From the NCBI GenBank assembly GCA_021299715.1, contig JAJTEL010000001.1, positions 271,171 to 335,170 on the forward strand: a DNA stretch of 64,000 nt, given 5' to 3'. A program made the position numbers and the translations under genes. The number at the start of each line of letters is the position of its first letter. Within the stretch, counting starts at the first letter, position 1. This DNA comes from Ilumatobacteraceae bacterium (GTDB lineage: Bacteria > Actinomycetota > Acidimicrobiia > Acidimicrobiales > Ilumatobacteraceae). Positions 375 to 22,540 of the stretch are shown here, in pieces. The notes beneath the pieces were generated by a model. It was not told the origin of the DNA, ran no database searches, and was given only the letters and a program-made list of their open reading frames with translations.

Positions 375-380
375 TAGGCT
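375..380 (+). promoter_or_regulatory. -10 box TAGGCT of leaderless glycosyltransferase gene
   Basis: TAGGCT is followed by six bases and then ATG 387, so transcription should begin at or next to the start codon. No convincing -35 or Shine-Dalgarno is seen. The rest of 191-386 is A/T-rich spacer between divergent genes, with nothing else I can name. Confidence 0.45.
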
Positions 381-386
381 TGCGCC

Positions 387-3325: not shown

Positions 3326-3334
3326 GGTTCTTGT

Positions 3335-4123
3335 GTGATTATCGACATTCAGTTCAACCAAGGCTCGGCATCGTGGCCCGCGTTGCGCGACGGAGTGCTG
3401 ACCGCCGAGGCGGCCGGATTTTCCACTGTATGGAACTTGGATCATTTTTCCGGTGCCATGTTCAATAGCGACTCCATGATGGAGTGTTTCACCAGTCTCA
3501 CCGCGTGGGCCACGGTGACATCGCGCATCAAAGTGGGCACGTTGGTGACGAATATCAATAATCGTCACCCAGGGTTGCTGGCCAACATTGTCAGTTCGTT
3601 GCAAGACATTTCCGGCGGGCGACTCATGTTGGGCGTCGGTGCGGGTACATCACCCAATAGCCCGTACGGTGCTGAACAACGCGCGTTGAACATGGACGTT
3701 CTCACGCCAATGTCTGCACGTCATCAAAAACTTCTGGAGAACATCACCACAATGCGATCCATCTGGGCTCATGATCGAGATGCATTGTTTGAAGGGTTTC
3801 CACGCCCAGCAACAGTTCCGCCCATCATCGTTGGTGTGAACAGTGTTGGTTTGGCGAAGCTTGCCGGACAGCATCTCGATGGAGTGAACACACGCTTCAA
3901 TCACCCCGATCGCGCATCACTCATTCGCGCAGCGCTCACGGCACGCGGAAACACCCCTGGATTTGACGTCTCGGTGTGGTCGCCGTTTGTTCCAGAGTAT
4001 GCAGACCCAGATCATCCGTTCCATAAGGAATTAGTGGCCGATGGCGTTACTCGTCTCATTATGTTTGATCTGGGCGCTCCGCATCTTGAGACCATCCAGA
4101 AAACTGCGCGCTATTTAGCCTGA
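3335..4123 (+). CDS. LLM-class (luciferase-like) flavin/F420-dependent oxidoreductase
   Basis: This 262-residue TIM-barrel protein of the bacterial luciferase-like family has WNLDHF near the start, SRIKVGTLVTNINNRHP, and SGGRLMLGVGAGT. These are the usual conserved strands and the glycine-rich cofactor loop. It is somewhat shorter than the usual 300-350 residues. Such enzymes use FMN or coenzyme F420; F420 is plausible because fbiC is in this window. The start is GTG 3335, with TAGGG eight bases upstream. Its 3' end overlaps the convergent PQ-loop gene by 13 bases. The substrate is unknown. Confidence 0.8.
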   Translation: MIIDIQFNQGSASWPALRDGVLTAEAAGFSTVWNLDHFSGAMFNSDSMMECFTSLTAWATVTSRIKVGTLVTNINNRHPGLLANIVSSLQDISGGRLMLGVGAGTSPNSPYGAEQRALNMDVLTPMSARHQKLLENITTMRSIWAHDRDALFEGFPRPATVPPIIVGVNSVGLAKLAGQHLDGVNTRFNHPDRASLIRAALTARGNTPGFDVSVWSPFVPEYADPDHPFHKELVADGVTRLIMFDLGAPHLETIQKTARYLA

Positions 4124-4713
4124 ACGAAGAGCGGTTCGCCTGCTGCAATTCGCCAACGAATTGCTTTCGACAAGATGAAAATCATCATTGGAATGGTGAA
4201 GTAGTTGATGACCGACATGACGATGTCATTCAACATCCACCCGTAGATCATCCACGACGCTGACGACACGATGGTCATCATCCAACTCATCACAGAGATG
4301 CCATGAAGGTTTTCCGTTTTGATGACGTGTGCGACTTGTGGCATCAGAGAGGTGACGCTGACTGTGGTTGCCATCCAGCCCACCACCGACGGAGACACGG
4401 GCACGGCAATGAGAAGAAGCGCTGCAAGCGCTGCTGCAAATTTCAGTAGAAGCGCAATGGGCATGCTGCCGTGTTTGTACAAGACACTGATGATGATGAG
4501 TTGTGCCGTAATGAATGAGCCATTTGAAAACCAAATGGCTTCGCGCCCCATGGAGACGCCATAGGTAAACCACAAGGCCGAACCCACCAGGCCGTGCGCA
4601 ACGCTAAATGGAGAGATGCCATGGGACGTGTCTCGTCTGACCATTCGCCACACTTGCGGCCAAATAAAGATGAGGCTGGTGAAGGTGCACCAGACACCCA
4701 TAGCGGCATTCAT
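4111..4713 (-). CDS. PQ-loop repeat (SWEET/SemiSWEET-like) membrane protein
   Basis: This 200-residue, very hydrophobic protein has about seven membrane segments and two PQ-loop motifs. WPQVWRM follows the first helix and MPQVAHV sits in the second half, so it is an internally duplicated three-helix bundle like eukaryotic SWEET and PQ-loop transporters. The family moves sugars or amino acids; the substrate cannot be told. The start codon overlaps the leuS stop (TAATG), so it is probably co-transcribed with and coupled to leuS. Its stop lies inside the end of the convergent LLM gene. Confidence 0.75.
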   Translation of the reverse strand: MNAAMGVWCTFTSLIFIWPQVWRMVRRDTSHGISPFSVAHGLVGSALWFTYGVSMGREAIWFSNGSFITAQLIIISVLYKHGSMPIALLLKFAAALAALLLIAVPVSPSVVGWMATTVSVTSLMPQVAHVIKTENLHGISVMSWMMTIVSSASWMIYGWMLNDIVMSVINYFTIPMMIFILSKAIRWRIAAGEPLFVQAK

Positions 4714-7577
4714 TACTTAACGACGATATTCACAGTGCGTCCGCGCACCACAATGGTCTTGACGGGAGTCTTGCCTTCAAGTGCTGCTACCACGTTGTCT
4801 AGTGCCATAGCTGCCGCGATGTGTTCATCGTCGTTGGCATCTGGTGCAACAGAGATACGGCCACGAACTTTTCCGTTGACTTGAACAGGAACCTCAATGA
4901 CATCTTCTACCAGCAACGCAGGATCTGCTTGTGGGAAGGGCACGTAGGTCACTGTGGTGGAATGACCGAGGCGACTCCACAGTTCTTCGGCAAGGTGTGG
5001 GCACAACGGCGACAACATCTGCACTAACGGTTCCACCACAGCGCGTGGAGATGTTCCGAGAGCAGAGGTGTGCTGAGTGAGGGCATTGTTGAACTCGATG
5101 AGCTTGGCAATAACGGTATTGAAGCGAAGACCATCCATGTCTGCTTCAACACCAGCAATGGTGCGGTGCAGATGACGCAACAATTCTTCTGGTGGGGCAT
5201 CGTTGGTGACAACAAGCTCTCCCGTGTCTTCATCAACCACGTTGCGCCACAGGCGTTGAAGAAAACGTTGCATGCCCACAACATCTCGCGTGTTCCACGG
5301 ACGGCTTGCATCGAGCGGGCCCATAGCCATCTCGTACAAACGGAACGTGTCGGCGCCGAACTCTTCGTACATTTCATCGGGCGTAACGATGTTCTTCAGG
5401 CTCTTGCCCATCTTGCCGTATTCACGTGACACCGTCTCGCCGTTCCACGTGTATGTTCCGTTGTCTTCCACTACCTCTGCGGCGGGGACTGTTTGACCAC
5501 GGGCGTCGCGATATGCGTAGGCCTGAATGTATCCCTGGTTGAACAAACGATGGAATGGTTCTTCGCTGCTGACATGACCGAGGTCGTGCAGAACTTTGTG
5601 CCAGAAGCGTGCGTACAGCAAGTGAAGAACAGCGTGTTCAACGCCGCCCACATACAAGTCGACGCCGCCGGTATGGCCTTCACCTTGTGGTCCCATCCAG
5701 TAGCGCTCCACTTCGGAGTCAATGAAAGTGTCTGCATTGGTGGGGTCGAGATAGCGCATTTCGTACCAGCACGAACCCGCCCATTGCGGCATCACATTCA
5801 CTTCGCGCTTGTATTCGCGTGGTCCATCTCCAAGGTCGAGCGAGACGGTGGTCCATTCCTTCACTCGTGCAAGAGGGGGAATGGGGTCACTGTCTGCATC
5901 ATTGGGATCGAGTGCTGTTGGCTTGAAGTCGGCAAGTTCTGGCAGCAAGACAGGCAGTGCAGATTCGGGAACTGCGTGTGCATTGCCATGTTCGTCGTAC
6001 ACGATGGGGAATGGTTCGCCCCAATAGCGCTGACGAGAGAACAACCAATCGCGCAGGCGATAAGTGGTGGTGGCTTCGCCGTGCCCATTGCTTTCTAGCC
6101 ATGTATTCATGCGCGTCTTCGCCTCACTAATGGAGGTCAGTCCGTTCAAACTGAGCGAGTCGTTTGCTGAATCGATGTATTCACCGTCACCAACGAACGC
6201 TTCTGGCCATGTTGAGCAATCGCTGCTTGGCGCAATGTTGCGCTGGTCAAACCACGACTGTGGGGGCATTTGCGTTGCAACGATGGGCAAGTTGTAGGTG
6301 CGCGCAAAGTCGAAGTCGCGTTGGTCGCCGCTTGGTACTGCCATGATGGCGCCAGTTCCGTATCCCATCAGCACATAGTCGGCGATGAAAATAGGAACGT
6401 CTTTGCCAGTGACAGGGTTTGTTGCGTACGCGCCCGTAAAGACGCCGGTCTTTACTTTGGAGTCGTCTTGACGTTCGTCGTCGGCCTTTGCGGCTGCTTC
6501 GGCGACATATGCGGCAACTGCGCTGGCCGCATCGGGAGACGTCACTGCAGAAACGAGAGGATGTTCTGGTGACAACACCAAGAAGGTGGCACCAAACAAC
6601 GTGTCGGGTCGAGTGGTGAACACTTCAATTGCGCCCGCAGAAGACGTAAACGAGACACGAGCGCCTTCGCTTTTCCCTATCCAATTGCGCTGCATCAACT
6701 TGATGGGCTCTGGCCAGTCCAACCGGTCGAGGTCATCAATAAGGCGATCTGCATACGCAGTGATACGCATCATCCACTGGCGCATGTTTCGCTTGAACAC
6801 GGGGTAGTTGCCAATGTCGCTGCGGCCATCGGCGGTGACTTCTTCGTTCGCCAGAATTGTTCCGAGACCAGGGCACCAGTTCACGGGTGCATCGGTGAGA
6901 TACGCCAAACGATGTGAGTCGATGTAGTCGTGCTTTTCTTGTGCGGTGAAGTCTGCCCATGCACGATTTCCGGGAAGTTGGTGAGTTCCCGATTCGCACT
7001 CCGCCACCAATTCGTTAATGCGTCGAGCACGGTTTTGTGTGGTGTCGTACCACGCACCGTGAACTTGCAAGAAAATCCACTGTGTCCATTTGTAGAACTC
7101 TTCATCGGTGGTGCTGACGCTGCGGCGCGCATCGTGGCCAAGCCCAAGTCGACGCAACTGACGACGCATATTCGCAATGTTTGATTCGGTGTTGATGCGC
7201 GGATGAATGCCGGTGGTGATGGCGTGCTGTTCTGCGGGCAAACCAAAACTGTCGTAGCCCAAAGCATGAAGAACGTTGTAACCCTTCATTCGCTTGAACC
7301 GGGCGTACACATCTGTACCGATATAGCCAAGTGGGTGACCTACGTGAAGACCAGCACCAGAGGGATACGGGAACATGTCCAGAATGAAGGCCTTCGGTTT
7401 TCCGGCCAAACGCTCAAGATCCTTCAGTGGGCCGGCGGGGTTTGGTGCGTTGTACGTACCTTCGGCATCCCAGGTGTCTTGCCAGCGTGACTCAATATCT
7501 GCTGCAAGGCGTGCCGAATAACGAAAGGGAGGAAATTTTGTCGCTCCAGCGGAGGAGGGCATCGCCGAGTCAGTCAT
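4713..7577 (-). CDS. leuS: Leucine--tRNA ligase
   Basis: This class I synthetase of 954 residues charges tRNA-Leu. It carries the HIGH-type signature in [18 protein letters not shown] near residue 70, the CP1 editing domain in the middle, and the KMSKS-type loop as KMGKSLKN near residue 724, followed by the anticodon-binding C-terminal domain. It is somewhat longer than many bacterial LeuRS proteins, with extra residues in the catalytic half. A strong -10 hexamer TAGAAT (7587-7592) lies nine bases before ATG 7577, so the mRNA leader should be very short. ATG 7562 is an alternative start. It is divergent from rbfA. Confidence 0.97.
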
Positions 7578-7598
7578 GGTTGTGCCATTCTAGATGCC

Positions 7599-8024
7599 GT
7601 GTCCAAACAACGCCCAAGGTCGGGTCGCCGTCAGCCGAAGGGCGGTTCCTCTCACGGGTACCCCCGCACTGCGCGACTATCGGAAGTTCTTCGCGAAGTC
7701 ATCGCCGACGAACTCACTCGCATCGATGATGAACGGCTTGATTTGGTGACCGTCACTGCAATCGATGTGGACCCAGAGATGAATCGCGCCATCGTCTACT
7801 TCGACTCCATGTTTGGTGAAGAGGGCGACGAAGGTGTCATTGAGGCCATGAACGAACATCGTGCCCGCATTCAGGCATCCATTAATCGGCAGATGCATGC
7901 GCGCAAGACTCCCATTCTCAGTTTCAAACCAGACGAAGTCATTCGCAGTGCGGCTCGAATTGAAGAACTGCTGCGTCGCCAACCCGACACATCTCCCATC
8001 GTTCCCGACGACGACACGCAGTAG
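7599..8024 (+). CDS. rbfA: 30S ribosome-binding factor A
   Basis: RbfA is a small KH-like factor that binds immature 30S subunits and helps mature the 16S rRNA 5' end. The 141-residue product shows the family pattern: RLSEVLREVIADELTRIDDERL, VTAIDVDPEMNRAIVYFD, then a C-terminal helix with RIEELLRR. A basic N-terminal extension and an acidic tail are present. The start is GTG 7599. truB follows after three bases, the standard rbfA-truB order. Confidence 0.93.
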   Translation: MSKQRPRSGRRQPKGGSSHGYPRTARLSEVLREVIADELTRIDDERLDLVTVTAIDVDPEMNRAIVYFDSMFGEEGDEGVIEAMNEHRARIQASINRQMHARKTPILSFKPDEVIRSAARIEELLRRQPDTSPIVPDDDTQ

Positions 8025-8027
8025 TAC

Positions 8028-8900
8028 ATGGCCAGGCGTCGACCGCCCACTGTTCACGGTCTCGTTCTCGTAGACAAACCCGCAGGCATGACAAGCCACG
8101 ATGTTGTGTACAAGCTTCGGAAACATTTTGGTGAAAAACGAATTGGTCACGCGGGAACCCTTGATCCTGATGCCACTGGTTTATTGGTGGTGGGCGTCGG
8201 CAATGCAACACGACTTATTCGTTTCATGGGTGATATGGACAAAACGTATTCGTGCGAGATTGTCTTCGGGTCTGAGACCGACACCTTGGACGATTCAGGA
8301 ACTGTCACCCATACTCACGACATGACGCCGCCACACATTGATGATGTGCGGCGCACTATTGCAGAGAAGTTTGTGGGAAATATTCTGCAAGTGCCACCCA
8401 TGGTGTCCGCGCTGAAAGTAGATGGAGTGCGATTACACCAACTGGCGCGCGAGGGAATTGAAGTGGAACGCCAAGCCCGACCCATCGCCGTGTATTCATT
8501 TGATGTGGAGCCCACAGAGAACCCCATGATCATTCGTGCCATGGTTCGTTGTGGTGGCGGCACATACATTCGTTCTTTGGGCGCAGACCTTGGCACTGCA
8601 TTAGGTGGCGGTGCGCACATTCGCACCCTGCGACGTCACACCACTGGTCCGTATTCCATAGAAGAAGCCTGCACGCTTGAACAACCAGTTTTGTTGCCCG
8701 TGCGTGACGCGGTGCGAGCGTTGACAACTCATCAACTCACTTCAGAAGAAATTGACGATGTGTTATTCGGCAGAGTTCGCGAAGCTTGGGATGGTGATGG
8801 TCCGTGGGCGGCGGTGGACTCGCATGGTGAACTTGTTGCGGTCTTCGAACTGTGGAAAGACCGTATTGCCAAACCGACGGTGGTGTTTGGGGGCAGATAG
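8028..8900 (+). CDS. truB: tRNA pseudouridine(55) synthase
   Basis: TruB converts U55 of the T-loop in nearly all tRNAs to pseudouridine. This 290-residue protein opens with the typical GLVLVDKPAGMTSHDVV and carries the catalytic motif HAGTLDPDATG, with the nucleophilic Asp near residue 46. Further conserved blocks are PMVSALKVDGVRLHQLAR and GTYIRSLGADLG. The C-terminal part fits an actinobacterial TruB-C domain. It lies in the rbfA-truB-ribF run. Confidence 0.96.
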   Translation: MARRRPPTVHGLVLVDKPAGMTSHDVVYKLRKHFGEKRIGHAGTLDPDATGLLVVGVGNATRLIRFMGDMDKTYSCEIVFGSETDTLDDSGTVTHTHDMTPPHIDDVRRTIAEKFVGNILQVPPMVSALKVDGVRLHQLAREGIEVERQARPIAVYSFDVEPTENPMIIRAMVRCGGGTYIRSLGADLGTALGGGAHIRTLRRHTTGPYSIEEACTLEQPVLLPVRDAVRALTTHQLTSEEIDDVLFGRVREAWDGDGPWAAVDSHGELVAVFELWKDRIAKPTVVFGGR

Positions 8901-8902
8901 CG

Positions 8903-9868
8903 TTGCCACTCGTGCGCGTCATCACCGACCTCTCCGCCAGTCCGTGGCCAGATCAACGGGCCGTTGTCACCATTGGTGCCTACGACGGTGTGCATCTTGG
9001 ACATCGGGCGGTCATTCGACAAGTTCAGGCTCGCGCTCACGAACTTGGCGCTCTCAGCGTGGTGGTCACGTTCGACCGTCACCCCGCCAGCATTGTGCGC
9101 CCAGATGCTGCGCCGCGTTTGTTGACAACCGTTGAACAAAAGATTGAACTTTTAGAGAGCACGGGAGTTGACGCCGTTGTTGTCGTTCCGTTTGACCCTG
9201 AACAAGCTCGTGAGACTCCGGTTGATTTTGTTACTCGAGTCTTGGTCAATGTGTTGCGAACACAGGCCGTCATTGTTGGATCAGATTTTCACTTCGGACA
9301 CATGCGTCAAGGAAACGTGACCTTGTTACGTGAAATGGGGGAACGCCATGACTTCACGTGTGAGCCCATTGTTCTCATCCCGCGTGCCGACGGAGTGAAC
9401 GAGCCCGTCAGTTCAACAGCAATTCGTCGTGCATTGGCTGGCGGCGAAATAGATAGCGCCACACGCATGTTGGGTCGTGCGCACGAAGTGCGCGGCACGG
9501 TGGTGGCAGGCGACCAACGCGGTCGCACCATTGGTTTCCCCACCGCAAACGTTCACATTCCGTCTGGCATGTGCTTGCCAGCCGATGGCGTGTATGCCGG
9601 TGTTTATCGACGCCCCGACGGCAGTGAGCATTCGTGCGCTATCAACTTGGGTCGCCGTCCAACGTTCTATGCCAATCAGGACTACTCCTTGTTAGAGGCG
9701 TACTTACTCGATTTCACTGGCGATCTGTACGGAGAAGATGCCGCAGTTCAGTTCGTTGCGTTTTTGCGTAGTGAAAAACAGTTCGGTGGTATCGACGAGT
9801 TGAAACAACAACTTGTCAAAGACATCGAGAACGCGCGGTCAGCGGTTCTTGCGCGCCACAGCGCTTAG
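8903..9868 (+). CDS. ribF: Bifunctional riboflavin kinase/FAD synthetase
   Basis: RibF phosphorylates riboflavin to FMN and adenylates FMN to FAD. The N-terminal nucleotidyltransferase half has GAYDGVHLGHRAVI and the STAIRRAL region. The C-terminal flavokinase half begins with GDQRGRTIGFPTANV and ends with FLRSEKQFGGIDELKQQL. I chose TTG 8903, just after the truB stop and about ten bases after GGGG. GTG 8912 is also possible. ATG 8852 would overlap truB and adds residues the family does not have. The end overlaps convergent fbiC by four bases. Confidence 0.93.
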   Translation: MPLVRVITDLSASPWPDQRAVVTIGAYDGVHLGHRAVIRQVQARAHELGALSVVVTFDRHPASIVRPDAAPRLLTTVEQKIELLESTGVDAVVVVPFDPEQARETPVDFVTRVLVNVLRTQAVIVGSDFHFGHMRQGNVTLLREMGERHDFTCEPIVLIPRADGVNEPVSSTAIRRALAGGEIDSATRMLGRAHEVRGTVVAGDQRGRTIGFPTANVHIPSGMCLPADGVYAGVYRRPDGSEHSCAINLGRRPTFYANQDYSLLEAYLLDFTGDLYGEDAAVQFVAFLRSEKQFGGIDELKQQLVKDIENARSAVLARHSA

Positions 9869-12378
9869 CTGCCAACTGATGGCGACAAATGCTTGTACGC
9901 CGTGTTGCGTTGCGTCAGAACTCGACGCAACGGCGCAACAATTTCGCCGAAGCGACCTTCTGTCATTGCTTGGCCATGATTGGCGCCTGCAGCACGAGAG
10001 ATGTTTTCGTCCATAAGGGTTCCACCTAGGTCGTTACAACCTGATTGCAACAACTGCGCCGCACCGTGAGTGCCAATCTTTACCCAGCTTGCCTGCACGT
10101 TGTCGATAAGGCCGTCATAAAAGATGCGTCCAATCGCGTGCATCAGAATTGTCTCGCGGAATGTTGGACCGCGGCGAGATTTCTTTTGCAAATAAATGGG
10201 TGACGCCATGTGCACGAATGGCAATGGAATGAACTCGGTGAACCCACCTGTTTCTTTTTGCAGCTCGCGAGTGACCACCATGTGATTGGCCCATGAATCG
10301 GGATGTTCAACACTGCCGTACATGATGGTGATGTTTGAATGAAGGCCAACGGAGTGTGCTTGCCTATGGCACTCCAGCCATTCTTCAGTATTCACTTTGT
10401 CGGAACAGATAATGGCGCGAATCTTGTCGTCCAAGATTTCTGCGGCTGTTCCGGGAAGAGATGCAAGGCCTGCGTCTTTCAAACGCACCAGGTAATCACG
10501 CAACGATTCGCCGTTGCGATGTGCGCCTTCAGTGACCTCAAGAGCAGTAAAACCGTGAACATGCATGTCGGGAACAGCAGACTTCACGGCACGTGTGACA
10601 TCGATGTAGTAGTCGCCGTCGAAGTCGGGGTGAATACCACCTTGGAGTGTTACTTCTGTTGCACCCATGTCCCATGCTTCGCGGGCACGATCTGCAATGT
10701 CATCCAATGTGAGTAGGTACGGAGTGCCTCGAAGGTTTAGCGAAAGGGGACCCTTGGAGAACCCACAGAACTTGCACTTGTACGTGCACACATTGGTGTA
10801 GTTGATGTTTCTGTTGTGCACCCAAGTGACGGTGTTGCCCACTGCGTTGAAACGCAGTTCGTCTGCGTAGTCGGCAATGAGTCCCACCTCTGGTCCACGC
10901 GCACGAAAGAGATCAATGATCTCTTGTTCACCGAGTTCTTGGCCGTTTCGGTGACCGTCAATAATTTCTGCAACGCGACCACGCGCAAAGGGTCGTGGAT
11001 GTGGCACCAATGTCATGGGCTTCACGTTTGACCCTGAATACCACTGCGTTGATTTGTGGCCGACAAGAACAACTTCGGCACCGTCGTGCACAACATCTGC
11101 TGCTGTGACTTTCTCTGGCCAGATTGCACCTGGATCGTCGCGGCCAAGACCTTCAGCATCGGTGCGGTCCAAGACGGGGAAATGCAACGAAGAGTCGAGC
11201 CACTTGTCTGGTGCAGTTGCGAACTCTGGATAAATGGTGAGGCGTGGCGCTAATGCAAAGCCACGATCTTCGGTGACATCACGCAATCTGTCTAGTGCGG
11301 GCCATGGGCGTTCGGGGTTGACGTGATCTGCGGTGACAGGGGAGACGCCACCCCAATCGTCAATTCCCGCATCAAGCAACACACCGAAGTCGTCAGACAA
11401 ATTGGGTGGAGCTTGTAAGTGGATGCTGGGCGGAAGGATCAGTCGTGCAACAGCAATTGACCACAAGTACTCATCTTCTGGGCATGGCTTGGCTTTGTGC
11501 ATTGCTGTGCCGGCTTTTGGCAGGAAGTTCTGCACGATGACTTCTTGAACGTGTCCGTACGTTTGGTGAGCAGCAGCGAGGAGTGCGAGGGCGTCAATGC
11601 GATCTCGACGATCTTCGCCAATACCCACCAAGATTCCCGATGTAAACGGAATGGCTAGTTCGCCCGCAAGACACAAGGTGTCAATGCGTCGTTGCGGTTC
11701 TTTGTCTGGTGCACCGCGGTGACACTCAAGGTCATCTCGCAACGACTCCAACATCATTCCTTGAGACGGTGACACTGCGCGCAACAGTGCAAGTTCCTCT
11801 TCGTACAACGCACCTGCATTGGCATGCGGCAACAAACCAGTTTCGTTCAACACCAGTTGCGCCATGTCGTGCAGGTAATGAATGGTGGAGTCGTACCCGT
11901 TGTCGCGAAGCCACTGCGCAGCAACGTCGTAACGAAGTTCGGGCCGCTCACCCAATGTGAAGAGGGCTTCGTGGCATCCTTGGCGCGCACCTTGTCGCGC
12001 GATGGTCAAAATGTCATCGGCGGTGAGATAGGGCTTTTCTAGTCGTGCCGGCGGTTGAGCAAATGTGCAGTAGCCACACTTGTCGCGACACAACATGGTG
12101 AGCGGAATGAACACCTTCGGCGAAAACGTGATGCGTGTGCCGTGGGCAGCATCGCGAACGTCGCGCGCACGAGACATGAGATCGTCGAGCGACGCACTCA
12201 TGAGGTCGTCAATGAATGACTGTTGAATGGGATGCGAGGACATGAGGTCATCGCGGGAGAACTGACGCAACAAGGCAGCACCTTTCAGGTGGACACAGCG
12301 GATGGGTTTTGTCAGTGCTGGTCGACTGCCTGAAAGCGAGTTAGAAAGTGCCTCCACGCGGTCGTGATGACCGAGCAA
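9865..12378 (-). CDS. fbiC: F0 synthase (7,8-didemethyl-8-hydroxy-5-deazariboflavin synthase), CofG-CofH fusion
   Basis: This 837-residue double radical-SAM enzyme makes F0, the chromophore of coenzyme F420, from L-tyrosine and 5-amino-6-ribitylaminouracil. The N-terminal CofG half has Cys97/101/104 in CRDKCGYC. The C-terminal CofH half has CTYKCKFC near residue 531. Blocks such as GVSPVTADHVNPERPWPAL and GGTLMDENISR match known FbiC. The length matches mycobacterial FbiC (about 850). The start is TTG 12378, with GTG 12357 as an alternative; upstream of the first radical-SAM domain the family is poorly conserved. That segment holds three DDLMS copies (residues 43-69). It is last in the operon ribE-aroQ/VOC-fbiC. 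Confidence 0.95.
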   Translation of the reverse strand: MLGHHDRVEALSNSLSGSRPALTKPIRCVHLKGAALLRQFSRDDLMSSHPIQQSFIDDLMSASLDDLMSRARDVRDAAHGTRITFSPKVFIPLTMLCRDKCGYCTFAQPPARLEKPYLTADDILTIARQGARQGCHEALFTLGERPELRYDVAAQWLRDNGYDSTIHYLHDMAQLVLNETGLLPHANAGALYEEELALLRAVSPSQGMMLESLRDDLECHRGAPDKEPQRRIDTLCLAGELAIPFTSGILVGIGEDRRDRIDALALLAAAHQTYGHVQEVIVQNFLPKAGTAMHKAKPCPEDEYLWSIAVARLILPPSIHLQAPPNLSDDFGVLLDAGIDDWGGVSPVTADHVNPERPWPALDRLRDVTEDRGFALAPRLTIYPEFATAPDKWLDSSLHFPVLDRTDAEGLGRDDPGAIWPEKVTAADVVHDGAEVVLVGHKSTQWYSGSNVKPMTLVPHPRPFARGRVAEIIDGHRNGQELGEQEIIDLFRARGPEVGLIADYADELRFNAVGNTVTWVHNRNINYTNVCTYKCKFCGFSKGPLSLNLRGTPYLLTLDDIADRAREAWDMGATEVTLQGGIHPDFDGDYYIDVTRAVKSAVPDMHVHGFTALEVTEGAHRNGESLRDYLVRLKDAGLASLPGTAAEILDDKIRAIICSDKVNTEEWLECHRQAHSVGLHSNITIMYGSVEHPDSWANHMVVTRELQKETGGFTEFIPLPFVHMASPIYLQKKSRRGPTFRETILMHAIGRIFYDGLIDNVQASWVKIGTHGAAQLLQSGCNDLGGTLMDENISRAAGANHGQAMTEGRFGEIVAPLRRVLTQRNTAYKHLSPSVGS

Positions 12379-12394
12379 CTACAGCGTAGACGGA

Positions 12395-13174
12395 TTATTG
12401 GTCTGTGTCAGCGTTGGAGATGGCTTCAAACATGGCAGACACGTTGTGGCTGGTCATGGGGACTCTGTGCCCTGTGCGGCTGATGAAGCTCAATTGCACT
12501 CCCGTGGCGGGGTCGAGGGCGGCAAAGACTTGTTCGTGTCCTTCGCTGTCCACCACGATGTCGGTCAGGCGGGGAATGCCGGCCGAATCGAGGGCGTCGC
12601 GAGTGACGCCAGCATTGAACACTTCGATGGCGATGTGCTGGACTCCCGACCCGTGCTCGGAGAGCCGACGATGGACCGCGGGGTTGTGGTTGGGTCCCAC
12701 CAGAACAACGTTCACGCCACCAGCAACAGCATTCACCACCGCGGGATCGTCGGTGCTGTTGGTGCGGAAACCAATTTCGTCGAAGAATTTCCGAGCAGCA
12801 TCAAGATCGGCCACCGCAACAACAACGTGGTCGATACGAACAGCAACGGTGTCTAGTTGGCTACGTGAATGCGCACCCGCATCTTTTTCAGGAGTTGGTT
12901 CTTCGCGACTCTCGGCCGCTTCTATGCGGTGAGTCTCGGACAACAATGTGCGAAACAACTGCTCGGCAAAGTCGGCGTCAACTCCGGCATCGATGGCCCA
13001 CTGACGACGAGACATCAATACGTCGCGCACACGATCTGGTTGAATAATTGCATCTCCAGAGTTGCCCTTTGTTTCTGCAACTTCACGAACAATGTTGATG
13101 CGTTGGGCAAGAAGTTGCACCAACGTTGCATCTAATTCGTCGATACGCGCACGAAGTTGAGAAAGGTCGGCCAT
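12395..13174 (-). CDS. Chorismate mutase (AroQ)-VOC domain fusion
   Basis: This is a 259-residue two-domain protein. Residues 1-90 form an AroQ-type helical chorismate mutase (LRARIDELDATLVQLLAQR, Lys in ETKG, then QPDRV and AEQLFRTLL). The site usually filled by Glu in PxRE is Val (DRV), as in PchB-type enzymes. Residues 112-245 form a glyoxalase/VOC domain (RIDHVVVAVADLDAARKFF, GSGVQHIAIEV) like methylmalonyl-CoA epimerase or the N-terminal half of 4-hydroxyphenylpyruvate dioxygenase. The joint reaction is unknown. The gene is two bases from ribE and 16 from fbiC, so it is certainly in that operon. Supplying aromatic precursor for F0 synthesis is an inference. Confidence 0.8.
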   Translation of the reverse strand: MADLSQLRARIDELDATLVQLLAQRINIVREVAETKGNSGDAIIQPDRVRDVLMSRRQWAIDAGVDADFAEQLFRTLLSETHRIEAAESREEPTPEKDAGAHSRSQLDTVAVRIDHVVVAVADLDAARKFFDEIGFRTNSTDDPAVVNAVAGGVNVVLVGPNHNPAVHRRLSEHGSGVQHIAIEVFNAGVTRDALDSAGIPRLTDIVVDSEGHEQVFAALDPATGVQLSFISRTGHRVPMTSHNVSAMFEAISNADTDQ

Positions 13175-13176
13175 GG

Positions 13177-13743
13177 TTATTTGTCTGCGTTCACGAGTCG
13201 TTCAACGTGTTTTGCCAGCACATCAATCTCAATGTTGACAGCGTCGCCCACCGCACGGTGACCAAGAGTGGTCACGTCGGCGGTGTGTGGAATGACGGCG
13301 ACTTCAAAAGTGTCGTCAGTGAGATTGAACACAGTGAGGCTGATGCCGTCGACAGTGCAGCTTCCTTTTTCCACTACATATTTCATTAACTCGCGTGGAA
13401 TGCGCACCACAAGTTGCGGAACAGGGGAGACAATTTCGCCCACTGCATCAACGTGACCAAGCACAATGTGGCCACCGAAACGACCGTTTGCCTGCATGGG
13501 TCGCTCGAGGTTGACGGGATCGCCAGGTTGCAAGTGGCCGAGGTTGGTACGCGAGTAGGTTTCGTCGGACACGTCGGCCACCCACCAGTTGGGGCCCTTG
13601 TCCACCAGTGTCAGGCAGCAACCGTTCACAGCAATAGAGGCTCCGATTCCTGAGTCTTCAAGGACAAGAGCAGCCGAAATGGTCAATTTGGCTCCCTCTC
13701 GGGCGGCAATGGTGCCTTTTTCTTCGACAATTCCGGTGAACAC
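13177..13743 (-). CDS. ribE: Riboflavin synthase alpha chain
   Basis: The enzyme dismutates two 6,7-dimethyl-8-ribityllumazine molecules to riboflavin. The product has two lumazine-synthase-like beta-barrel repeats: one starts [10 protein letters not shown], and the other carries [13 protein letters not shown] followed by [13 protein letters not shown] place the start at GTG 13743, giving 188 residues close to the family norm, because VFTGIVE is the invariant N-terminus. The frame is open upstream to 13911, but those residues are not family-like. A TAGTCT box seven bases upstream supports this start. The FMN riboswitch pattern was looked for in 13744-13891 and not found. Confidence 0.93.
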
Positions 13744-13750
13744 ACTGTGG

Positions 13751-13756
13751 AGACTA
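13751..13756 (-). promoter_or_regulatory. -10 box TAGTCT of ribE operon
   Basis: On the minus strand, TAGTCT plus seven bases precedes GTG 13743. It supports a leaderless ribE-aroQ/VOC-fbiC message and the short start choice. Confidence 0.4.
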
Positions 13757-13891
13757 ATAGCCAGATGGGGTTGTAGGCACTGGGGAATGGCTCCTAGCCT
13801 TGAAGAGTCTCCGTGGGCTCCGGCGCGCGGACGATGTTTTTCCCAAAGGTTGGGACAAACGCCCTCTCTCACAAAAGGAACAGAGGCCATC

Positions 13892-14146
13892 ATGTCGAAG
13901 AACGACACCATTGCTACGTACCGTCAGCACGGCACCGACACAGGTTCCCCCGATGTGCAAATTGCGCTCCTTACCGATCGCATTAACCACCTCACCGCGC
14001 ACCTGCAGACACACCCTAAAGATCACCACAGCCGCCGTGGCTTGTTGATGTTGGTGGGTCGCCGTCGTCGCATGCTCGACTACGTTCGCGATCGCGACAT
14101 TGCTCGCTACCGCGATCTCGTCGCAAAGCTCGGCCTTCGCCGCTAA
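13892..14146 (+). CDS. rpsO: 30S ribosomal protein S15
   Basis: S15 binds the central domain of 16S rRNA early in 30S assembly. The 84-residue product matches the family throughout: [44 protein letters not shown] and [13 protein letters not shown]. It is a few residues shorter than the usual 89. The start is ATG 13892, with AGAGG 13882-13886 upstream. It sits in front of pnp, the arrangement found in most bacteria. Confidence 0.96.
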
Positions 14147-14150
14147 ATCA

Positions 14151-14263
14151 CTTTCCCGCCAACAGTTTCAATTTGTTGTCGGTTGTCAGTCGAGAGTTCC
14201 GCGCCACCCATAGGTGTTGGCGGCGGGGTTGACGACTGGGAACCGGCGTTTGTTGGCGGAAAG
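14151..14263 (+). promoter_or_regulatory. Structured rpsO-pnp leader with two alternative long-range stems
   Basis: CCGCCAACA (14156-14164) is exactly complementary to TGTTGGCGG at 14215-14223 and again at 14251-14259. The outer pairing extends through CTTT (14151-14154) with AAAG (14260-14263) across one bulged C, giving about 13 pairs. Further complementary pieces inside (CAGTCG with CGACTG, GTTCC with GGAAC) add structure. PNPase genes elsewhere are autoregulated through a cleaved hairpin in this position. A similar role here is inference. The pnp ribosome site (AAAAGGGAG, from 14275) lies just after the structure. Confidence 0.5.
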
Positions 14264-14288
14264 CACAACAACATAAAAGGGAGTTCCC

Positions 14289-16754
14289 ATGGCTGACGCA
14301 ATTCGCGTATCTGCACCTGTATCGGGTTCAGAAAAGACCATTTCGTTCGAAACCGGAAAGCTTGCGACGCAGTCGCAAGGTGCGGTCATAGCAACAATCG
14401 GTGGTACCACCGTTCTTGCCACTGCAAACGCTGCTCGTGGCGTTCGCGATGGCATTGACTTTTTCCCGCTGACAGTCGACGTTGAAGAACGCGCCTACGC
14501 AGCAGGAAAAATTCCAGGCGCATTCTTCCGTCGTGAAGGTCGCCCCTCCGAGCAGGCAATTCTTACCTGCCGCCTTATCGACCGTCCTTTGCGTCCTGCA
14601 TTCCCCGACGGCTACCGCAACGAGACACAAGTAGTCATCACCGTTGTTGGCGTCGACATGGAAAACCCACACGACGTCATTGCAATTAACGCATCGTCTG
14701 CAGCGCTCATGATCAGTGGAATTCCATTCGAAGGCCCCATTGGTGCTGTTCGTATGGCGTTCTCACAAGACGGTGAATGGATTCCTCACCCCACCTATGC
14801 AGAAGGCAACAACGGCACATTCGAAATTGTGGTTGCTGGTCGCGAACTCGACAACGGAGACGTCGCCATCATGATGGTGGAAGCAGGCGGCACCGAGAAG
14901 GCGTTTGAGTTCTACGCAGAAGGCGCACCAAAGGTGTCCGAACAAGTCATTGCCGATGGTCTTGAAGCATCGAAGCAGTGGATTAAAGAGTCCATTGGTT
15001 TGCAGCGCCAACTTGTTGCCAGCGTTATTGCAACAAGCGGACCAATTGCAGCACTGGAATACACACCAGTGCTCGACTACACCGACGAAATCTTTGCTGC
15101 AGTAGAAAAAGTGGCAACGTCAAAGTTGGCAACAGCTGTCACCATCGCACTGAAAGCCGACCGCAACGCTGCAACAGACGCAGCCGCTGCAGAAACTGTT
15201 GCTGAACTGTGTGGCGAAGGCGGAGCGTTCGCAGGCCAAGAAAAGGCAGTGAAAGAAGCAGTTCGCAGCCTCACCAAGAAGCTTGTTCGTAAGCGCGTTG
15301 TAGAAGACGGCATTCGTATCGACGGCCGCGGTCCACGCGATCTTCGGCCATTGTCAAGCGAAGTCGGAATCTTGCCTGCAGCGCACGGAACCGGATTGTT
15401 CCAGCGCGGCGAAACACAAGTTCTCAACGTGTGCACCTTGGCAATGCCTCGCATGAACCAAATGCTCGACACTTTGGGTCCAGACAACGAGAAGCGCTAC
15501 ATCCACCACTACAACATGGCTCCATGGGCAAATGGTGAGACAGGTCGCGTGGGTTCACCAAAGCGTCGCGAAATTGGCCACGGTGCTCTTGCCGAGCGTG
15601 CACTTCTTCCCGTTATTCCAAGCCAAGAAGAATTCGCATACGCCATTCGTTTGGTGTCTGAAGTTCTCTCTTCAAACGGTTCCACCTCAATGGCATCGGT
15701 GTGTTCATCAAGCTTGTCGCTTATGGATGCTGGTGTGCCCATTAAGGCTCCCGTCTCCGGCATTGCAATGGGTCTCATTTATGCAGAGGGTAAGTACCTC
15801 GCACTCACCGACATTCTCGGTGCAGAAGACGCATTCGGCGATATGGACTTCAAGGTTGCTGGTACAGAAGACGCAGTCACTGCATTGCAGCTCGACACCA
15901 AGATTGACGGTATTCCTGCCGACGTTCTTGCGTCAGCACTTCAGCAAGCACGCGATGCACGTATGGCAATTCTTCAGTCAATGAACACAGCATTGTCTGC
16001 ACCTCGTTCCGAAGTCGGCGCAACTGCTCCGAAGATTGTTTCGTTCAACATCCCAATGGACAAGATTGGCGAAGTCATCGGACCAAAGGGCAAGGTCATC
16101 AACACCATTCAGCAAGAGACTGGTGCCGACATTGCAGTAGACGACGACGGCGCAGTCGGAATTGTCACCATTGGTTCACCAGACAGCTTCCGCGTAGAAG
16201 AGGCACGCGATCGCATCCTTGCAATCGTCGATCCTCCAACTGCAGAGTTGAACGCCATCTACAACGGTCGCGTTGTCAGCACCACCAAGTTCGGCGCATT
16301 CGTCAACATCCTTCCTGGACGTGACGGACTTGTTCACATCTCAAAGCTCGGTAATGGCCAGCGCGTGAACAATGTGGAAGATGTCTTGAACCTTGGCGAT
16401 GTCATCCGCGTGCGCGTTGACGACGTTGACGACAAGGGCAAGGTCAGCCTCACTCCCGTTGACGAAGACGGCAACGACATCCCAGGCGGTGGCGGTGGTG
16501 GCGGTGAACGCCGCGAGCGTCGTGACGACCGTGGTGGACGTGACCGTGACGACCGTGGTGGACGTGACCGTGGAGGTCGTGGTGGACGTGATCGTGACGA
16601 CCGTGGTCCACGTGAACCACGCGAGCCACGCGGCGATGCACCAAAGGAAGTCTCGTTTGAAGACGAATTCGAAAACGAACTTCGTTCCGAACTTGGAGAC
16701 CTTGGCCCCGACACCCGTGGAGATCGCGGCGACCGTAATCGTCGCCGTCGATAA
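14289..16754 (+). CDS. pnp: Polyribonucleotide nucleotidyltransferase (PNPase)
   Basis: PNPase is a trimeric 3'-5' phosphorolytic exoribonuclease of RNA turnover. The 821-residue protein has two RNase PH cores (the second with GETQVLNVCTLAMP and GSTSMASVCSSSLSLMDAGVP), a KH domain (KIGEVIGPKGKVINTIQQETGADI) and an S1 domain (GRVVSTTKFGAFVNILPGRDGLVHISKL). It is roughly 80-100 residues longer than typical because of a glycine/arginine/aspartate tail (about residue 735 onward) encoded by tandem 24-bp DNA units. The start is ATG 14289, with AAAAGGGAG upstream. The tail may bind RNA or partners in the degradosome; this is inferred from its RGG-like content. Confidence 0.97.
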   Translation: MADAIRVSAPVSGSEKTISFETGKLATQSQGAVIATIGGTTVLATANAARGVRDGIDFFPLTVDVEERAYAAGKIPGAFFRREGRPSEQAILTCRLIDRPLRPAFPDGYRNETQVVITVVGVDMENPHDVIAINASSAALMISGIPFEGPIGAVRMAFSQDGEWIPHPTYAEGNNGTFEIVVAGRELDNGDVAIMMVEAGGTEKAFEFYAEGAPKVSEQVIADGLEASKQWIKESIGLQRQLVASVIATSGPIAALEYTPVLDYTDEIFAAVEKVATSKLATAVTIALKADRNAATDAAAAETVAELCGEGGAFAGQEKAVKEAVRSLTKKLVRKRVVEDGIRIDGRGPRDLRPLSSEVGILPAAHGTGLFQRGETQVLNVCTLAMPRMNQMLDTLGPDNEKRYIHHYNMAPWANGETGRVGSPKRREIGHGALAERALLPVIPSQEEFAYAIRLVSEVLSSNGSTSMASVCSSSLSLMDAGVPIKAPVSGIAMGLIYAEGKYLALTDILGAEDAFGDMDFKVAGTEDAVTALQLDTKIDGIPADVLASALQQARDARMAILQSMNTALSAPRSEVGATAPKIVSFNIPMDKIGEVIGPKGKVINTIQQETGADIAVDDDGAVGIVTIGSPDSFRVEEARDRILAIVDPPTAELNAIYNGRVVSTTKFGAFVNILPGRDGLVHISKLGNGQRVNNVEDVLNLGDVIRVRVDDVDDKGKVSLTPVDEDGNDIPGGGGGGGERRERRDDRGGRDRDDRGGRDRGGRGGRDRDDRGPREPREPRGDAPKEVSFEDEFENELRSELGDLGPDTRGDRGDRNRRRR
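16521..16616 (+). repeat. Four tandem 24-bp units encoding the PNPase RGG/RD-rich tail
   Basis: The first two units (16521-16544 and 16545-16568) are identical. The third and fourth differ at a few bases. Each encodes RDDRGGRD or a close variant (RGGRGGRD, RDDRGPRE), so copy number can change without a frameshift. Confidence 0.8.
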
Positions 16755-18817: not shown

Positions 18818-20449
18818 ATGAAGGGCTTGATGCAGCCAACCCAGTTGACCATCAACTACTTGTTCGATCGTGCCGAGAAGTACCACCCAGAGAAGAACAT
18901 TGTGACCGCGACGGCAACGGGAATAGAGCGCACTACCTATGGCGTGTGGGCAGACCGCACTCGACGCCTCGCCACAGTGTTAGATCAGTTGGGTATCTCC
19001 AAACATGGCCGCGTGGGAACGTTCGCGTGGAACACACAGCGTCACCTTGAGTTGTATTTCGCTGCGCCATGTAGTGGTCGTATTGCGCACACCCTGAACA
19101 TTCGTTTGTTCCCCGAACAACTTACCTACATCGTGAATCACGCCGAAGACGAAGTCATCTTCATTGACACCTCTATCTATCCGTTAATTGAGCCACTGCT
19201 GTCCACGTTCACCACGGTGAAGCACTTGGTGTTTATGTATGACGGCAAAGGCGAAGTACCAACATCGGTTCCTGGTTACACGGTTCACGAATACGAAGCG
19301 CTTCTTGCAAACGCCAAGCCGGCGCAATGGCCTACCGACATTGATGAAAACCAGGCTGCGGCAATGTGTTACACATCGGGCACCACGGGAAATCCGAAGG
19401 GTGTGGTGTACAGCCACCGCAGCACCTACTTGCACACAATGGGAACAATGATCGCCGACTCTGTTGGTGTCTGTGAGTCCGACATTCTTTTGCCTGTCGT
19501 TCCCATGTTCCATGCAAACACATGGGGACTTGCGCACGCAGGAGTTGCAACTGGCGCCGACCTCATCATGCCTGGCCCCGATTTGTCTGGGCCTGCAGTT
19601 GCAAAGTTGATCGTGGAAGAGAAAGTCACAGTTGCTGCTGGCGTTCCCACCATCTGGATGGCTGTGCTTCCTGAATTGAAGGGCAAAGACACTTCGTCAC
19701 TTCGATGCATACCGTGCGGCGGATCTGCAGTGCCAAAGGCACTTAGTGAGGCGTACCGCGAACAAACTGGCTTGCCTATTTTGCAGGCATGGGGCATGAC
19801 CGAAACAAGCCCAATTGCAGCAGTGTGCACACTGTCAAAGGCTGACCGCTTGCTTCCACAAGAAGAACAAGCTGAGTTGCGTACCACAGTTGGTCTCATC
19901 GCATTTGGCGTAGAGATGCGCGTAGTAGAACCAGGAACAACAACTCCGTTGCCATGGGATGGCGAATCAAGCGGTGAATTGCAGTGTGCTGGTCCGTGGA
20001 TTGCTTCGAACTATTACAACGACCCACGTTCTGGTGAAAGTTTCACTGCCGATGGTTGGTTGCGCACCGGCGACGTTGCAGTTGTTGACGCAAAGGGCCG
20101 CATTCGGTTGGTGGACCGCACAAAAGACCTCATTAAGTCTGGTGGCGAATGGATTTCGTCGGTCGATGTGGAGAACGAACTCATGTCGCATCCAAAGATT
20201 GCCGAAGCAGCCGTTATTGGAGTGCCGCACCCCAAGTGGAGCGAACGCCCGCTTGCGTGCGTTGTGGTGAAGCCAGGAGAGACTCTCACCAAAGAAGACG
20301 TCATCGAACATTTGGTTCCGCGTCTTGCAAAGTGGCAGTTACCAGACGACGTGGTGTTCATTCCTGAAGTGCCAAAGACTTCGGTGGGTAAGTTCTCGAA
20401 GAAGACTCTTCGTGACCAGTTCTCCGATTACGTGTTGCCCGACGCGTAG
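18818..20449 (+). CDS. Long/medium-chain fatty-acid--CoA ligase
   Basis: This acyl-adenylate-forming enzyme of 543 residues activates fatty acids with ATP and CoA. It contains the P-loop-like motif YTSGTTGNPKGVVYSH, the A5 motif AWGMTETSP, the A7 motif DGWLRTGDVAVVD, and the A8-A10 region RTKDLIKSGGEWISS with the catalytic Lys in KTSVGKFSKKTLRD. The start is ATG 18818 with GAAGGGGA upstream; the frame is open to 18620, but those residues are not family-like. Its stop codon forms the left edge of the 38-bp repeat that brackets the DUF262 islet. Confidence 0.92.
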   Translation: MKGLMQPTQLTINYLFDRAEKYHPEKNIVTATATGIERTTYGVWADRTRRLATVLDQLGISKHGRVGTFAWNTQRHLELYFAAPCSGRIAHTLNIRLFPEQLTYIVNHAEDEVIFIDTSIYPLIEPLLSTFTTVKHLVFMYDGKGEVPTSVPGYTVHEYEALLANAKPAQWPTDIDENQAAAMCYTSGTTGNPKGVVYSHRSTYLHTMGTMIADSVGVCESDILLPVVPMFHANTWGLAHAGVATGADLIMPGPDLSGPAVAKLIVEEKVTVAAGVPTIWMAVLPELKGKDTSSLRCIPCGGSAVPKALSEAYREQTGLPILQAWGMTETSPIAAVCTLSKADRLLPQEEQAELRTTVGLIAFGVEMRVVEPGTTTPLPWDGESSGELQCAGPWIASNYYNDPRSGESFTADGWLRTGDVAVVDAKGRIRLVDRTKDLIKSGGEWISSVDVENELMSHPKIAEAAVIGVPHPKWSERPLACVVVKPGETLTKEDVIEHLVPRLAKWQLPDDVVFIPEVPKTSVGKFSKKTLRDQFSDYVLPDA

Positions 20450-20483
20450 TCGCGTTTACAAACGGCCCGAAGCGATGATTCGC
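20446..20483. repeat. Left 38-bp direct repeat of the DUF262 islet (R1)
   Basis: This matches 22503-22540 at 37 of 38 positions. It starts inside the synthetase stop codon. Read on the minus strand, it encodes the last nine residues and stop of the ABC ATPase (RIIASGRL plus stop). The one mismatch is a silent third-base change in the Ala codon. Upstream of the repeat the reading frame is unrelated to the ATPase. Confidence 0.85.
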
Positions 20484-20582
20484 AACAGTGCTGGAAGCTC
20501 AAAAGATAAGACCAGACAGAGCGGATTTTGTGATGTCATTCGCGGGATTGATCTTTGTGCAATTTGAGACTTGAGAGGTGAG

Positions 20583-20684
20583 ATGACAGCACCAAAGCCC
20601 GAAATTCTCCGCGTCACAAGTGTTAGTTTTCAATCACTGACCGCATTCGGTCGGTACCTGAAAACTCGTGTCGTCCAAATGTGA
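20583..20684 (+). CDS. Possible 33-residue ORF upstream of DUF262 gene
   Basis: ATG 20583 follows GAGAGGTGAG, a strong match to a ribosome-binding site, and the frame closes at TGA 20684, 12 bases before the DUF262 start. The short product begins MTAPKPEILRV and has no recognised domain. It may be a leader peptide, a small partner protein or a relic of an older gene. Evidence is limited to the ribosome site and spacing. Confidence 0.3.
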   Translation: MTAPKPEILRVTSVSFQSLTAFGRYLKTRVVQM

Positions 20685-20696
20685 AAGCAAATCCCT

Positions 20697-22454
20697 ATGC
20701 CGCCGTATCAGAAAATAGATCTTCAATTGCAGGATGCCGTCACAGACATCAAGGCTGGAGTATTGCAACTACCTGAATTTCAACGAAAATTTCGGTGGAA
20801 ACCATCTGAGCAGACCTCGTTGCTGGCGAGTATTCAAAGGAACTACCCAGTGGGCTCAATCCTATTGCTCGAAATTGCCGCGACAGGAGACTTGCCCTTT
20901 GCCATTCGGCCCTTTACCGGCGTATCTCCATCTTCGGTCGGTCGGCCCAAGTACTTGGTACTGGATGGACAACAGAGGCTCACCACGTGCTTTCAAGCAA
21001 TGGCAGGAGTTGGTGCCAAGCGAGCTGTCATCGATTTAGAGAAACTATTCGAAGCCGCAAATGAAAATCATCCAGGTCAGGTTATTGACTTTGAAGAACT
21101 GATTCGCTTTGAACGGGCACCGAACCATCTTGACCAATTACTGATGAACAAGAATTGCTTACCATTTCAATTCATCCTTGATCGAGCAAGTTTGAGAGCT
21201 AACTTGCGTACTTATCGAGACGGTCTTTTGAACAATCCAGAGACAGAAGAACTTGGCAAGTTTGTTGACAATGATCTCGAGATGTATCTGGATGTTTTCT
21301 TCGAGTATTTGTTTCCCGCCGTTGTTTTGCCGTCAAATTTGGAACTTGAGGCAATCGCCAATGTGTTTACAAAAATCAATACCACCGGTCTGAGGCTGTC
21401 TGCTTTTGATCTCTGTGTGGCGGCTCTCTTTCCAAAAGACATCAGCCTCAGATCAATGTGGGAATTGGCCGTGGAGAGCGACAAAATAAATCGTTTCGGT
21501 GACGATGGAACAGAGATACTGCAGGCAATAGCTCTTTCAAATAATCTCAATTCAAGAAAAGCCACTCTGTTCAGCATCTTGAGGGACCATCACATTAATG
21601 GGACATGGGCAGACGCTGTCAATGCTTACAAGTCGGTTGCGGACTCTATGGAATTAGTAGGAATTTCGGGGGCAAAGACCCTTCCATACTCTGGAGCTTT
21701 GCCGGTTTTGATTGCGGCTACCTTGAAAGTTCCTGTGGGTAACCAGCCACCAGATAAAACTGCTCGGCAAAACAGAATCGCAAAGTATCTTTTCCACACG
21801 GCATTCTCTCTTCGTTACACCGAGGGTTTGGATTCCAAACGTGAGGAAGATTTTGTTGACCTCCTTGAGTTCTTCAGAAATGGAAACACCCCAAGATTCA
21901 TGAGCAATGCCATCCCATGGGACACCGAGACTGTGATTCGTCTCGGTCGAGGTGGCGCCAGAAGCACTGCAGTCATGGCTCTTCTCAATCGTCAACGCCC
22001 ATATGACTTGATTAATCATGATCAGCAGGTTGGTATAAATCGAGCCGACTGTTTGTCGGCAGAGGTCCATCACATCTTTCCTAGGGCCTATCTATCAACG
22101 GTTGGTAGGGCAGACGATGCCGATCGTGCCATGAACTTCACACTTCTGACACGTGAGTCAAACAACTTCATTAGTGACCGAAAACCGTCTACATACATCG
22201 CCGAGGTTCTTCAGTCGATTTCTGACGAGAATGGTTTAAATCAAGAGGCCTCTCGTGCAAAGCTTCTCGACATACTTAAGAGCCACTTTCTAGATGAAGC
22301 GTGTCTTAATGCGCTGCTCATTGACGACTATGACGCATTCTTGAATGCACGCAGTGAATGTGTGCGCGGGCAAGTGGAAGCTATCGGGATTGAATGTTTT
22401 AAACCGGTAGAAAGCGAAGTTGGCGACCTCGATGAAGACGAGGAGTTGGAGTAG
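20697..22454 (+). CDS. DUF262 domain protein with C-terminal HNH nuclease (GmrSD-like)
   Basis: This is a 585-residue protein. The N-terminal DUF262 (ParB/Srx-like) fold shows LPEFQRKFRWKPSEQ (residues 25-39), the DGQQRLTT motif (90-97) expected to bind or split nucleotide, and FTKINTTGLRLS near residue 223. The C-terminal part has a His-Asn-His-type nuclease pattern: EVHHIFPRAYL near residue 456, then NFTLLTRESNNFISDRKP. This resembles the GmrS-GmrD pair that restricts modified phage DNA, fused in one chain. No methyltransferase or other defence gene is adjacent. Start ATG 20697 lacks a strong ribosome site. It lies in the repeat-bracketed islet. Confidence 0.85.
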   Translation: MPPYQKIDLQLQDAVTDIKAGVLQLPEFQRKFRWKPSEQTSLLASIQRNYPVGSILLLEIAATGDLPFAIRPFTGVSPSSVGRPKYLVLDGQQRLTTCFQAMAGVGAKRAVIDLEKLFEAANENHPGQVIDFEELIRFERAPNHLDQLLMNKNCLPFQFILDRASLRANLRTYRDGLLNNPETEELGKFVDNDLEMYLDVFFEYLFPAVVLPSNLELEAIANVFTKINTTGLRLSAFDLCVAALFPKDISLRSMWELAVESDKINRFGDDGTEILQAIALSNNLNSRKATLFSILRDHHINGTWADAVNAYKSVADSMELVGISGAKTLPYSGALPVLIAATLKVPVGNQPPDKTARQNRIAKYLFHTAFSLRYTEGLDSKREEDFVDLLEFFRNGNTPRFMSNAIPWDTETVIRLGRGGARSTAVMALLNRQRPYDLINHDQQVGINRADCLSAEVHHIFPRAYLSTVGRADDADRAMNFTLLTRESNNFISDRKPSTYIAEVLQSISDENGLNQEASRAKLLDILKSHFLDEACLNALLIDDYDAFLNARSECVRGQVEAIGIECFKPVESEVGDLDEDEELE

Positions 22455-22502
22455 TCGTCAATGTGGGTTGATTACTACCGGCCGAGTTTCATTCTCGATT
22501 TA

Positions 22503-22540
22503 GTAGTCGCGTTTACAAACGGCCCGACGCGATGATTCGC
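22503..22540. repeat. Right 38-bp direct repeat of the DUF262 islet (R2)
   Basis: This copy contains the functional 3' end and stop of the ABC ATPase gene (22513 is the last base of the stop on the minus strand). It matches 20446-20483 except for one base. Two short inverted repeats lie inside: CGTTT-AC-AAACG and GCGA-TGAT-TCGC. Confidence 0.85.

Follow-up and report, generated by a model that had tools for sequence, protein, structure and literature searches.

A DUF262-HNH gene inserted between two convergent genes of an Ilumatobacteraceae genome and flanked by a 38-bp target duplication

How does a compact genome take up a foreign gene between two tightly packed convergent genes and leave both of them whole? 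The question is raised by a locus in a 64-kb window (64,000 nucleotides; contig JAJTEL010000001.1, positions 271,171 to 335,170) of the Ilumatobacteraceae bacterium assembly GCA_021299715.1, where a DUF262-HNH gene lies between an acyl-CoA synthetase gene and an ABC transporter ATPase gene and is enclosed by a pair of 38-nt direct repeats (Table 1). Comparison with related genomes gave good support for a recent insertion that duplicated 38 bp of its target, took place after the split from the sister genome G007 and left the neighbouring genes intact.

Table 1. Coordinates of the insert, its flanking repeats and the adjoining genes in the window.
Feature	Position	Strand	Basis or remark
Left repeat copy, 38 nt	20446..20483	.	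Holds the base common to the sister genome at the sole mismatch
Right repeat copy, 38 nt	22503..22540	.	Authentic 3' terminus of the ABC gene; carries a single synonymous change (Ala, GCT to GCG)
Inserted segment, 2019 bp, 46.8% G+C	20484..22502	.	Repeat bounds, empty site and genus distribution
DUF262 / GmrSD_N protein, 585 amino acids, C-terminal HNH-like motifs	20697..22454	+	Pfam, PADLOC, motifs
Acyl-CoA synthetase (AMP-binding) gene, intact, 543 amino acids	18818..20449	+	Reading frame and family match
ABC transporter ATPase gene, intact, 246 amino acids	22513..23253	-	Reading frame and family match

Direct comparison of the two repeat copies showed identity at 37 of 38 positions with a spacing of 2,057 nt, in agreement with an earlier note made from the sequence alone. 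That note had described the repeats as copies of the end of the neighbouring ABC gene. The repeat does contain the final 28 nt of this gene, but also the final 4 nt of the synthetase gene with its stop codon and the 6 nt that separate the two genes. The left copy opens with the 4 nt from the synthetase gene, and the gene coordinates confirmed the right copy as the true end of the ATPase gene. Because the repeat spans the ends of both genes, the 3' ends of both are regenerated. In the window, a search with a 16-nt exact seed and copies at most 15 kb apart found no further non-tandem direct repeat reaching 24 nt, and in a scan of offsets from 100 to 14,999, at least 29 matches out of 38 were reached only at the offset of this pair. 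In 455 kb of its own contig the pair scored 35, whereas a single shuffled copy stayed below 18. These three results ruled out a chance origin of the repeat.

Further repeat pairs on the same contig measured 184 nt (79% identical), 27 and 44 nt, and, in two cases, 27 nt; a 33-nt pair, 14.2 kb apart, lay inside long reading frames. Seven contigs, one from each of seven genomes (1.25 Mb in all), were scanned for direct repeats scoring at least 21 at distances of 0.5-12 kb; six pairs were found in G000, seven in G002 and none in the other five. The full 38-nt pattern matched no genome contig.

The empty site with one repeat copy, which the earlier note had proposed to look for, was found in G007, which its ATPase, 97% identical, ranked closest among 60 relatives. 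The DNA of this sister genome is 89-91% identical and carries a single repeat copy at the junction, and the window flanks, joined at the repeat, aligned to it gap-free, with identity at 580 of 637 positions. Its 38 nt matched the left copy at 35 positions and the right copy at 34; the base of the left copy is therefore probably ancestral, and the functional right copy the one that was synonymously changed. Insert DNA was detected in 1 of 32 genomes of the genus, that is, in none of the 31 others, and the insert protein, searched for in 61 genomes at E 1e-10, only in its own. A scan of the genus with PF03235 gave matches in two of the 32 genomes, the second being a short match in G018 (42 bits). 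The composition of the insert was also foreign, with a G+C content of 46.8% (46.9% in its gene) against 51-55% in eight other window genes, and the codon fit of the insert gene was worse than that of each of these eight. Together, the gap-free empty site, the sole occurrence in the genus and the foreign composition supported a recent gain; a precise loss in G007 as the alternative would require losses across the whole genus. Conservation of the repeats in all relatives, which the earlier note had named as the observation that would speak against its reading, was not found.

Within the genus, the synthetase and ABC genes were less than 100 nt apart in 14 of the 20 members examined. The other six had a reading frame of 276-308 amino acids at the junction (one of them with a further gene) and no long flanking repeat; by our reading, these frames would encode membrane proteins. 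At the junction of two genomes, G017 (L007) and G010 (L008), the final 15-20 nt of the synthetase gene appeared by eye to be doubled in tandem, and in G010 the second copy contributes to the end of the adjoining reading frame. This doubling may be what is left of an earlier, similar insertion.

The junction was then surveyed in 117 other genomes of the family, comprising the 20 members of the own genus described above and 97 further genomes out of 101 in which the ATPase was matched; the four omitted had less than 0.9 kb of contig beyond the ABC gene. Both genes could be placed in 74 of the 117 genomes, 50 with the genes less than 100 nt apart or overlapping and 24 with 0.75-4.8 kb between them, and 43 had no synthetase within reach (55% identity, 150 bits). 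A long second copy of the ABC gene end was found in only one of the 117 genomes, G489 (L146, genus g4), with a score of 39, the next best being 15. In this genome, a perfect 39-nt repeat (G489:C136, 719-757 and 2600-2638) spans both stop codons and encloses a single gene with a PF00144 domain (hydrolase), with no PADLOC match and no recombinase. Thus, other cargo at the same site, as the earlier note had suggested, does exist. The sister genome of G489, G448 (L148), shares this insert, with a decayed repeat (88% over 5.7 kb of insert and flank). Relatives of the G489 cargo, 68% identical, occurred in two of 29 genus genomes in a different gene neighbourhood, and the cargo therefore looks like an ordinary gene.

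The 39-nt repeat of G489 and the 38-nt repeat of the window are unrelated in sequence: the best ungapped register gave 14 matches, a number reached by 412 of 1,000 shuffles, and recurrent use of the same site sequence was accordingly not observed. The G489 insert is an independent event at the same synthetase/ABC junction in another genus. The earlier note had spoken of a site-specific insertion that regenerates the gene end; the insertion and the regeneration held, but the comparison gave no support for site-specificity, the second event having an unrelated repeat. Since the survey was centred on this junction, a second case there is only weak evidence for a hot spot. In 0.54 Mb of family stretches, 16 repeat pairs exceeded a like threshold (in L106, L112, L146, L160 and L169), and those in L106, L112, L160 and L169 look like gene-family repeats. 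One candidate was rejected: an integrase-like match near the ABC gene of G549 (L159, 44 bits), the sole match of two integrase queries against the junction stretches of the 117 genomes, was a 346-amino-acid Xer-like gene in its usual neighbourhood and without repeats, not an insert.

Given an insertion, its agent has to be considered. Direct comparison supports that foreign DNA of 2,019 bp, carrying one DUF262-HNH gene, entered between nearly abutting convergent 3' ends, and that the 38-bp target, both stop codons included, now lies on both sides with neither gene damaged. In the mechanism we favour, the segment would have arrived as a circle and been joined by a tyrosine-type site-specific recombinase acting in trans or since lost, and the repeats would correspond to attL and attR. 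To integration by such a recombinase, which would make the insert a small non-autonomous or cis-mobilizable element with defence cargo, we assign about half of our confidence. Local precedents, the position of the repeats at a gene end and the synonymous difference in the functional copy argue for it. The last of these, with the sole mismatch both synonymous and in the functional copy, is as expected if the element supplied the gene end, a weak indication from one site.

The precedents come from the same genus. Eight of the 12 lowest-scoring integrase rows (<110 bits) were opened, and two of the eight had long repeats. In G014 (L079, G014:C32, 3219-11827), an 8.5-kb element with an integrase, a C5 methylase and a type II restriction enzyme is flanked by 83-nt repeats (79/83) that duplicate a coding-gene 3' end, by our reading that of an acyl-CoA dehydrogenase gene; the integrase locus of G001 has 47-nt repeats at a tRNA-Arg. 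In G002 (L190-L191, G002:C1, about 55.3-60.6 kb), the 3' end of a tRNA-editing-domain gene recurs as a 167-nt copy (88%) that begins 4.86 kb downstream, with a partial copy between, and DUF3800, DUF5122, TetR and MerR genes are enclosed; these are perhaps two inserts in tandem. No integrase was found at the G002 insert, the two integrase-family matches of that genome both lying elsewhere and in the Xer score range. The G014 and G002 cases give repeat-flanked integration at coding-gene 3' ends a precedent in the genus, in G014 with defence cargo. In view of the G014 element, the description of a protein-coding gene as an unusual target in the earlier note was too strong.

Several results weigh against a recombinase. 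The insert holds one long reading frame with a family match (overlapping shadow frames of 101-139 amino acids were set aside) and no recombinase, integration or transfer genes, the lack of a recombinase having been recognized correctly in the earlier note. In the own genome, which is 92.8% complete, two tyrosine recombinase matches (PF00589) were detected, both on another contig than the insert and with like-scoring counterparts in most genomes of the genus; judged by their neighbours they are Xer-like. Resolvase-type recombinases (PF00239) gave no match in this genome. A second integration of the segment was not found, the search including the 32 genus genomes, and the 20-nt right half of the site matched no viral contig. 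Moreover, the unrelated repeat of G489 at the same junction argues against one recombinase recognizing the site, and the identity of the repeat copies spans the ends of both genes, more than would be required of an attP adapted to a single gene. A phage carrying the att core was also considered and rejected: an 18-nt core occurred in one viral contig, in unrelated context and at about the frequency estimated for chance.

A close rival, to which we give a little over a third of our confidence, is a duplicative insertion independent of any recombinase, either by a template switch into the incoming DNA with a return 38 bp upstream, or by capture at a staggered break with both sides filled. Both repeats would then be copies of the target, and compact convergent genes would retain only those events that duplicate both stop codons. 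This would account for two independent single-gene inserts with unrelated cargo, neither with a recombinase and that of G489 of ordinary appearance, and for the duplicated stretches, 38 and 39 nt long and unrelated in sequence, which each cover both stops of the same gene pair. In genus g4, moreover, the two genes overlap (computed gap -18 nt) in seven of 17 genomes surveyed, and there an insertion lacking a duplication would harm one of the two. These seven belong to the 15 g4 genomes other than G489 and G448; of the remaining eight, seven have gaps of -4 to 0 and one could not be placed. Joining by template switch without RecA has been proposed for Escherichia coli, according to the available part of PMC5350276. 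On the other hand, Ku gave no match in the own genome, which leaves Ku-type end joining unsupported, and a limited literature search, over sources available in part, gave no bacterial case of foreign-gene capture with such a duplication. The near-equal lengths of 38 and 39 could also indicate a defined enzyme, though from two cases. Only tentatively, and at a lower probability, do we extend this idea to the family, whose compact genomes may gain single genes by a recombinase-free process that duplicates a target of about 38-39 bp, with the junction receiving such inserts repeatedly, in two or more genera.

A defined enzyme is the essence of the next explanation, in which a transposase-like or Cas1-like protein makes cuts staggered by 38-39 bp and whole genes are inserted with a target duplication of fixed length. 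The repeat lengths of 38 and 39 in two unrelated events fit this, but no terminal inverted repeats were seen at the ends of the insert, no transposase or other such enzyme was found in it, so that the marks of a DDE transposon were missing, and the lengths come from two cases; we consider it improbable. Least probable is that the repeat is ancestral or arose by chance and that the DUF262 gene, present from the start, was lost in relatives, for although loss by recombination between direct repeats likewise yields a clean empty site, the short distance between the genes in 50 of the 74 placeable family genomes, the absence of insert DNA from the other genus members and its foreign composition all stand against it.

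The cargo protein matched GmrSD_N (PF03235) with 104.3 bits (cut-off 33.2) and has a DGQQR motif at residue 90, and thus shows the combination of PF03235 and DGQQR that characterizes the GmrSD family. The top PADLOC model was the candidate family PDC-M55C (residues 11-560, E 1.9e-20). Against structure 7p9k, a DUF262 structure that we take to be BrxU, only a weak match of 65 residues was obtained (E 1.3e-4), and structure prediction without an alignment gave a mean predicted local distance difference test score (pLDDT) of 35.4. The C-terminal motifs HHIFP, NFTLL and NNFIS were present, yet PF07510 gave no match at E values up to 10. With its N-terminal PF03235 domain, DGQQR and C-terminal HNH-like motifs, the protein resembles, by eye, the GmrSD / DUF262-DUF1524 type IV restriction enzymes as their motifs are listed in the available part of PMC4619093; it differs from GmrSD in the missing PF07510 match, in a best PADLOC model that is a candidate family and in the weakness of the 7p9k match. 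The gene is probably a type IV restriction-like defence gene and, to judge by its family, probably degrades incoming modified phage DNA.

No close relatives of the DUF262 protein were found in the related-loci search. Remote ones occurred in 12 of 394 other genomes of the class (best long match 30% identical), in four phage records and in 59 plasmid records, none of the latter at 60% identity or more. Around the DUF262 genes of 13 relatives' loci, no repeats scored above shuffles, some flanks not being covered (partial matches) and L043, L051 and L052 being left out; the three highest scores in this test came from short loci overlapping themselves. Directly before the DUF262 gene and inside the insert, a 33-codon reading frame (window positions 20583-20684) follows the ribosome-site-like sequence GAGGTGAG; it may be a remnant or a leader.

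Among known systems, one of the nearest likenesses is to cis-mobilizable elements (CIMEs), as defined in the accessible part of PMC5704250, and to 15 Dehalococcoides ssrA islands without an integration module, which have flanking repeats and are called possible CIMEs in the portion of PMC3146451 at hand. Shared with these are direct repeats that copy a gene 3' end, acquired cargo and an element without a recombinase; of the features of a CIME, the insert has att-like flanking repeats with an empty site in a relative, and it lacks integration and transfer genes. However, CIMEs and the Dehalococcoides islands have integrase-bearing relatives at the same site, none of which was found for the window insert, whose cargo is a single gene and whose repeat extends across the ends of both convergent neighbours. 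The H47 genomic island of E. coli is mobile, has flanking repeats and, like the window insert, encodes no recombinase, but it measures 13 kb, its repeats are extensive and imperfect and its excision was detected by polymerase chain reaction (in the part of PMC5426353 available), whereas the window insert is known from sequence alone. The G014 element likewise has a direct repeat that regenerates a protein-coding 3' end and carries defence cargo (restriction-modification), and differs in its size, its own integrase and a repeat lying within one gene. By analogy, the insert looks like the integrase-less islands flanked by repeats and may work like them.

Such islands are already known; the second independent insert at the same junction is new here. 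The window and G007 provide a clean before-and-after pair, in which a compact genome gains a defence gene without damage to its tightly packed neighbours. Together with G489, they pose a testable question, namely whether integrase-less single-gene inserts are the work of recombinases supplied in trans or of a duplicative process whose products mimic att sites. If recombinase-free duplication is the answer, genes packed end to end would be able to gain a neighbour without losing an end.

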